The notes under the pieces are model-generated. The model was not told the origin of the DNA. It made no database searches and worked only from the letters and a program-made list of their open reading frames with translations. Below are positions 23,932 through 26,722 of a stretch of DNA of 64,000 bases, one piece after another (the first letter of the stretch is position 1; the number at the start of each line of letters is the position of its first letter). Location: the NCBI RefSeq assembly GCF_002224285.1, contig NZ_CP022436.1, positions 3,162,001 to 3,226,000 on the forward strand, read 5' to 3'. The position numbers and the translations under genes are program-made. Source of the stretch: Arthrobacter sp. YN (GTDB lineage: Bacteria > Actinomycetota > Actinomycetes > Actinomycetales > Micrococcaceae).

Positions 23932-24007
23932 TGGTGACCCCAGCGGGATTCGAACCCGCGTTACCGCCGTGAGAGGGCAGCGTACTAGGCCGCTATACGA
24001 TGGGGCC
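23932..24007 (-). tRNA. tRNA-Glu(CTC)
   Basis: 76 bases including an encoded 3' CCA. Acceptor stem GGCCCCA / TGGGGTC, anticodon loop with CTC, T-loop GGTTCGAATCC. A strong terminator starts 1 base after it. Together with the tRNA-Gln gene close by it lies near gltX, whose product in actinobacteria charges both tRNAs with glutamate. Confidence 0.97.
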
Positions 24008-24133
24008 TTGCACTTTTATCACCGTTTCCGGCGATCAAGCTGAATGAGTATTTCATACTTTCAGCTCCGTTCCAAATCGCTTGAGCGACTCGAAACTTCC
24101 GAAAATTCTGCGTACTAACGCGGATTTTCAGAG

Positions 24134-24205
24134 CTGGGATACCAGGACTCGAACCTAGAATGACGGTACCAGAAACCGTAGTGTTGCCAATTACACCATA
24201 TCCCA
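24134..24205 (-). tRNA. tRNA-Gln(CTG)
   Basis: 72 bases. Acceptor stem TGGGATA / TATCCCA, anticodon stem ACGGT/ACCGT with loop TTCTGGT (anticodon CTG), T-loop GGTTCGAGTCC. 3' CCA is not encoded (CTC follows the discriminator G). Same direction as tRNA-Glu, 126 bases upstream of it. Confidence 0.96.
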
Positions 24206-25104: not shown

Positions 25105-26624
25105 TTAGCCGCGGAAAGCGCGAACGCGGGCCAGGGACGAATCCTTACCAAGGATCACCATGGATTCGAACAGCGGCGGAGAGATGCGGCGGCCGGAGAT
25201 GGCCGTGCGCACAGGCCCGAAGGCGGCCCGGGGCTTGATGCCCAAGTCCTCCACAAGAGCCTGCTTCAGCGCCGTCTGGATGTTCTCAGCCGTCCACTCC
25301 TCGATGGGCTCCAGCGCTGCCAGGGCGGCGTCGAGGACCTCGTCCAGATTGGCGGGAAGTCCCTTCCGGGCGTCATCGGCCACGTCAATGGCGTCGTCGG
25401 CCTTGAACAGGAACGCCAGCATCTCAGGAGCCTCACCCAGGAGGGTAATGCGTTCCTGTACCAGCGGGGCGGCCTCGGCAAGAATCTCTTCCTGCCGCGG
25501 TGTGAGGATCTCCCCTACGAACCCGCCAGCGCGGAGGTAAGGGACCAAACGCTCCTTGAAGTCCTCCGGCGCCAGCAAACGAACGTGCGTTCCGTTGATG
25601 GCCTCGGCCTTCTTGATATCGAAGCGGGCCGGGTTGCCCAGGACATCGTGGATGTCGAAGTTGGCCACGAGCTGTTCCACGGTGAAGATGTCCTCATCTG
25701 CGCTCAGCGACCAGCCAAGCAGGGACAGGTAGTTGAGCAGGCCCTCGGGGATGAAGCCACGCTCGCGGTGCAGGAACAAGCTGGACTCGGGTCACGCTTC
25801 GAGAGCTTCTTGTTGCCCTGGCCCATGACGTACGGCAGGTGGCCGAACTCCGGCATGTACTCGGCAACACCGATGGCGTAGAGCGCACGGTACAGTGCGA
25901 TCTGGCGCGGGGTGGAGCTCAGCAGGTCCTCGCCGCGCAGGACGTGGGTGATCCCCATCAGCGCGTCATCCACCGGGTTCACCAGGGTGTACAGCGGGGC
26001 GCCATTGGCACGGACAACTGCAAAGTCGGGAACGGAACCGGCCTTGAACGTGATCTCGCCGCGGACGAGGTCGTTGAAGGTCAGGTCCTCGTCCGGCATG
26101 CGGAGACGCAGGACAGCCTCGCGGCCTTCGGCCTTGAACTGTGCCAGCTGTTCCTCGGTCAAGTGACGGTCAAATCCGTCATAGCCCAGCTTCGGGTCGC
26201 GGCCTGCGGCTTTGTGGCGGGCCTCGATCTCATCCGGCGTGGAGTAGGACTCATAGACGTGTCCCCCGGCCTTAAGCTTGGCGATGACGTCCTGGTAGAT
26301 GTCGCCGCGCTGGGACTGGCGGTACGGCTCGTGCGGGCCGCCGACCTCTACGCCCTCGTCCCAGTTGATCCCGAGCCACTTGAGGGCATCCAGCAACTGG
26401 TGGTAGCTCTCCTCGCTGTCACGGGCAGAGTCGGTGTCCTCGATACGGAAGATCAGCTTGCCGCCAGTGTGGCGCGCATACGCCCAGTTGAACAGGGCGG
26501 TGCGGATCAGGCCAACGTGCGGCGTTCCCGTCGGCGACGGGCAGAAACGGACGCGGACCGGAGTCTCGGCGTTGACGGCAGGGATGGCGCTGGAGGCAGC
26601 GTTCGACGCAGAAGCAGTAGTCAT
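25105..26624 (-). pseudogene. gltX: Glutamyl-tRNA synthetase, interrupted by an apparent 1-bp deletion
   Basis: Class I aaRS, charging tRNA-Glu and, in organisms without GlnRS, also tRNA-Gln. The first part (26624 to ~25789, about 278 residues) has [12 protein letters not shown] (HIGH motif) and runs to the KMSKS-type motif KLSKRDP, then falls into nonsense. The second part (from ~25780 to 25105) resumes in another frame at [22 protein letters not shown] and is complete to the stop. Adding one G in CCGAG (one C in CTCGG on the plus strand, about 25788) gives [18 protein letters not shown], the expected family sequence, and a 506-residue protein. Since the gene is essential and no second copy is in view, a sequencing or assembly error is most likely. 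Start at 26624 (MTTASASN); a longer start at 26690 lacks support. Confidence 0.9.
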
Positions 26625-26680
26625 AGTGGTTCCAACTTTACCGCTTGGCGCCGCCCCGGTTTCCCGGCTGGAAGCGCCCG

Positions 26681-26722
26681 ACGGCGGCACTGACCCTTCG
26701 TACGAAAGGTCAGTGCCGCCGT
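26681..26722. repeat. Long perfect hairpin between FAH gene and gltX
   Basis: 15-bp perfect arms, ACGGCGGCACTGACC and its complement, around a 12-base centre that is itself palindromic (TTCGTACGAA). It lies 34 bases past the FAH-gene stop. There is no T-run on the minus strand. It may be a Rho-type or structural terminator separating this gene from gltX. Confidence 0.7.

Follow-up and report, generated by a model that had tools for sequence, protein, structure and literature searches.

The interrupted gltX gene in the Arthrobacter sp. YN assembly very probably reflects a one-base homopolymer error of the consensus

In Actinobacteria, tRNA-Gln is first charged by the glutamyl-tRNA synthetase (GluRS) and afterwards amidated. 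The bacterial enzyme, GltX (TIGR00464), combines PF00749, the catalytic domain that GluRS and GlnRS share in Pfam, with the anticodon-binding domain Anticodon_2 (PF19269), and is encoded in a single continuous reading frame. Its gene is in general expected to be essential, as are murB and coaA. The closest descriptions of the kind of break dealt with here come from sequencing errors. One of these reports links the false deletions of a long-read assembly to homopolymer runs two to eight bases long, and such errors leave genes fragmented (PMC12007338). In another, indels affected 664 of 2116 aligned transcripts of an unpolished nanopore assembly; polishing with the same reads lowered this number to 278, and 172-189 were counted when polishing was taken further or with polished PacBio (PMC8306402). 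Frameshifted genes that are unclustered and validated by a homologue are expected to be sequencing errors and not genuine indels (PMC3711429).

The window studied here is a stretch of 64,000 nucleotides from the genome of Arthrobacter sp. YN, a single contig of 5,063,552 bases (5.06 Mb) with completeness rated 100% and contamination 0.59%. Its gltX, on the minus strand from 26624 to 25105, is like the bacterial GltX in having both domains, with complementary profile ranges, and unlike it in that the reading frame is interrupted in the text, which is one base short between the motifs KLSKRDP and FLHRERG (Table 1). A sequence-only reading of this DNA had claimed an apparent 1-bp deletion at the KMSKS-type motif of gltX, and both its coordinates and its description proved right in the DNA alignment and the profile searches. 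The open reading frame 25704-26690 (minus strand, with the gltX ATG at 26624) gives GluRS sequence up to KLSKRDP and is then out of frame until its stop, and a second frame resumes from FLHRERG and continues to the gene end, just as that reading had described.

The 470 positions of TIGR00464 (NCBIfam) are divided between the two pieces, 2-247 being matched by the 5' piece (E-value 1.7e-85) and 255-464 by the 3' piece (4.2e-35). The Pfam search divided the catalytic domain PF00749 in a similar way, with positions 2-249 in the 5' piece and 259-311 in the 3' piece, the latter match being below the family cut-off when taken alone; the KMSKS-type motif of this domain is present as KLSKR. Anticodon_2 was found in the 3' piece (E-value 4.6e-30) and is absent from the 5' piece. 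Moreover, chance is excluded by the identity of the pieces, 99% (residues 1-279) and 94%, to a single uninterrupted protein of a relative, G033, whose full-length product has 506 residues.

Table 1. Features of the window at and downstream of the interrupted gltX
Feature	Position in window	Strand	Evidence
gltX 5' piece, catalytic domain to KLSKRDP	25789..26624	-	TIGR00464, PF00749, 99% identity to G033 protein
C run (coding strand), where each of the 8 aligned relatives has one base more	25789..25791	-	DNA alignment
gltX 3' piece, catalytic domain end and anticodon-binding domain	25105..25779	-	TIGR00464, PF19269
tRNA-Gln (CTG) gene, downstream of gltX	24133..24205	-	ARAGORN
tRNA-Glu (CTC) gene, downstream of gltX, GluRS substrate	23932..24007	-	ARAGORN

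The alignment with other Arthrobacter gltX genes, which the sequence-only reading had proposed as a check, was made at DNA level with eight relatives (L034-L039, L042 and L043). A single internal gap has a length not divisible by three; it is of one base and is confined to the window sequence. Near the gltX start, four of the eight relatives have a 6-base in-frame gap. The frame-breaking gap sits at the coding-strand C run after the KLSKR motif, which reads GGG on the plus strand and is three long in the window sequence and four in L034. That reading had proposed that an extra G in CCGAG restores the frame. The one-base shortage stands; the gap falls at the C run, codon choice there varies among the relatives, and by the sequence the lost base may be C or G.

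Neither half of the gene is decaying, since the codon differences from L034, L035 and L036 are mostly synonymous on either side of the break: 80-91 synonymous against 2-4 nonsynonymous in the 277 codons before it, and 86-94 against 5-11 in the 226 codons after it. Both halves thus look to be under purifying selection.

The adjacency of the two pieces, both apparently under purifying selection, is what would be seen if programmed frameshifting were conserved in this gene or if the GluRS were split into two subunits. In this case the 3' frame has no start but a mechanical TTG, listed at the junction, and in the 36 same-genus relatives no gene is interrupted at the same place. The survey of the catalytic domain covered the own genome and 58 relatives, 36 of them of the same genus. 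The full-length domain was uninterrupted in 56 of the 58, being split in G030 and unmatched in G051, and 35 of the 36 genomes of the same genus have it uninterrupted, the open frames being 514-642 residues long. In G030 the two gltX breaks lie elsewhere, near residues 150 and 397, and this assembly is 92% complete and 6% contaminated; its double break (L195, G030:C1:2196001-2216000) is probably due to assembly errors too. Among the genomes compared, the break in Arthrobacter sp. YN is private to the assembly under study. At the gltX site the slippery heptamer, the stimulatory fold and the conservation in relatives that mark a programmed -1 frameshift were all lacking, and programmed frameshifting was rejected on site sequence, fold and conservation. 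The chance that the gene is of a programmed or split type is, in our judgement, negligible.

Slippage of the ribosome or of RNA polymerase at the C run could also be invoked if one base had truly been deleted, very recently, in the culture that was sequenced, some full-length GluRS still being made. The text itself agrees with such an event, selection on both pieces is equally compatible with it if very recent, and re-pairing of a proline tRNA within the C run would be conceivable. We consider it very unlikely, however: no in-frame X-XXY-YYZ heptamer was read there, the 106 nt that begin three bases past the C run fold no better than shuffled sequences (z +1.17), the shift is needless in 35 of the 36 same-genus genomes, and the same slippage would have to apply to murB and coaA too. 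The sequence-only reading had likewise called frameshifting unlikely, and site sequence, fold and relatives gave it no support.

A true null covered by another enzyme, be it a second GluRS, a GlnRS or the glutamyl-Q synthetase type GluQ-RS, was also weighed. Besides the two gltX pieces, the genome-wide search with PF00749 matched one gene (C1:4623878-4624642) and nothing else, and the single contig yielded no GluRS gene apart from the broken gltX. This other gene is the one paralogue that could favour a covered null. It encodes an ordinary GluQ-RS equivalog of 295 residues without the anticodon-binding domain, and a second, shorter match of GluQ-RS size is present in all 36 same-genus relatives. 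The one genome-wide match of PF19269 is that in the broken gltX itself, and whole-genome family searches found no GlnRS. The second gltX that the sequence-only reading had offered as an explanation therefore came down to this GluQ-RS gene, and a second GluRS, a GlnRS and a split enzyme were rejected on the whole-genome family searches. GatB is present, so by established knowledge one GluRS serves both tRNA-Glu and tRNA-Gln, and with a single enzyme for both tRNAs and no backup a true gltX null would be expected to be lethal. A covered null is accordingly exceedingly improbable.

The genes for tRNA-Glu and tRNA-Gln lie together directly 3' of gltX (window 23932-24205), whose product should charge both.

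Frame breaks elsewhere in the assembly were surveyed over 800 kb around and beyond the window, against the syntenic contig of one relative, G033. A gene entered the counts if 80% or more of its length could be followed, which left out 64 of 610 G033 genes and 60 of 631 of the genome under study, and further pieces had to be at least 25 residues long and 65% identical. With this relative as the single control, 18 of the 546 G033 genes followed were frame-broken in Arthrobacter sp. YN and 4 of 571 in the reverse direction (Fisher P 0.002), so that similar breaks occur elsewhere in the assembly and exceed those of the related genome. At least one of the four control breaks (A_374) looks like an over-predicted ORF and was kept in the count. 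An earlier survey of 400 kb with a looser rule had given 9 of 272 against 1 of 294; three of the nine were judged unsound and were removed by the stricter rule. In B_9 and B_39 the predicted start seems to lie ahead of the true one, and B_236 has a divergent, repetitive N-terminus.

The 18 broken genes hold 19 breaks, each of them a net loss of one base. The four control breaks in G033 are deletions as well, and the deletion bias alone is therefore weak evidence for an artefact. The breaks fall at homopolymer runs: in break contexts transcribed by hand from the alignments, a G/C run of at least 3 was present at 19 of 19 breaks against 34% of random spots, and a run of at least 4 at 13 of 19 against 8% (binomial P about 1e-10). 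By contrast, none of the four G033 breaks had a G/C run of at least 4 at the aligned gap (Fisher P 0.024, alignments read by eye). At the first break of B_353, substitutions stand beside the lost base. The breaks are also clustered, with six within 15 kb (simulated P 0.0004, from approximate break positions), which suggests patches of poor consensus.

One such patch lies outside the window, at G000:C1 about 3573170-3583330, where six frame breaks in about 11 kb strike a SURF1-like gene, guaB3 (twice), guaB, an acyltransferase-like gene and one unnamed.

Several of the broken genes would bear on viability. The only murB match of the genome (NCBIfam) is below cut-off, having lost its start and kept profile positions 44-290. 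The sole copy of coaA, encoding the type I pantothenate kinase, is split by a break (NCBIfam), and the family search, which covered types I and III, found no type III enzyme in the genome. The broken guaB need not be a null: of its 503 residues only about 36, at the end, are lost, and its score is still above cut-off; guaB3 has two breaks. Also struck are a UvrD/PcrA-like helicase, a Xaa-Pro aminopeptidase-like gene and transport genes (NCBIfam). The simultaneous loss of gltX, murB and coaA in a living cell is not credible, and an error in the text is thus the economical reading. Poly-A slippage has been reported from insect endosymbionts, and slippage at short G/C runs would be its high-G+C analogue. 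On that proposal the genome is correct and such slippage, in transcription or on the ribosome, restores many frames, those of gltX, murB and coaA among them; we give it next to no credence.

We are therefore nearly certain that the gltX break is a homopolymer-type one-base deletion error in the assembly consensus and that the gltX of the cell is intact; the broken frame is judged an error of the text, with no property of the cell affected. The living bacterium would have an ordinary, single gltX of about 506 residues, presumably encoding a non-discriminating GluRS. The assembly would under-call G/C homopolymers, by which one base would have been lost in the short C run, an error of the long-read deletion type left by incomplete polishing and repeated at 18 other such places in the surveyed 800 kb. 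By inference, the sequencing was done with a long-read technology and the missing base should be present in the reads. Speaking against an artefact, the assembly is good overall by its completeness and contamination ratings, and the gltX run of 3 is a milder context than that of 13 of the other 18 breaks. The sequence-only reading had put a sequencing or assembly error first, and the like breaks in 18 of 546 conserved genes, including the only murB and coaA, support it; it read correctly a text that is itself in error.

The case fits published descriptions of long-read errors, sharing with them one-base losses at short runs, many genes affected and false pseudogenes (PMC12007338, PMC8306402), and the gltX break also fits the expectation for frameshifted genes validated by a homologue (PMC3711429). 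The breaks are rarer here than in a raw nanopore assembly, 18 of 546 genes against 664 of 2116 transcripts counted by a different method (PMC8306402), and the assembly may therefore be partly polished. A literature search on gltX with frameshift and pseudogene found nothing related.

A linear extrapolation from 19 breaks in 800 kb gives about 120 genome-wide. A single-contig genome rated 100% complete may thus still carry perhaps a hundred false frameshifts, and apparent losses of essential genes in this assembly should not be taken as biology before re-polishing.

One of the sequences compared, L071 (WNZI01000017.1), is titled Vibrio cholerae strain 35D and encodes a GluRS 80% identical to the actinobacterial GluRS of the window; the record is thus probably an actinobacterial assembly that was mislabelled or contaminated.
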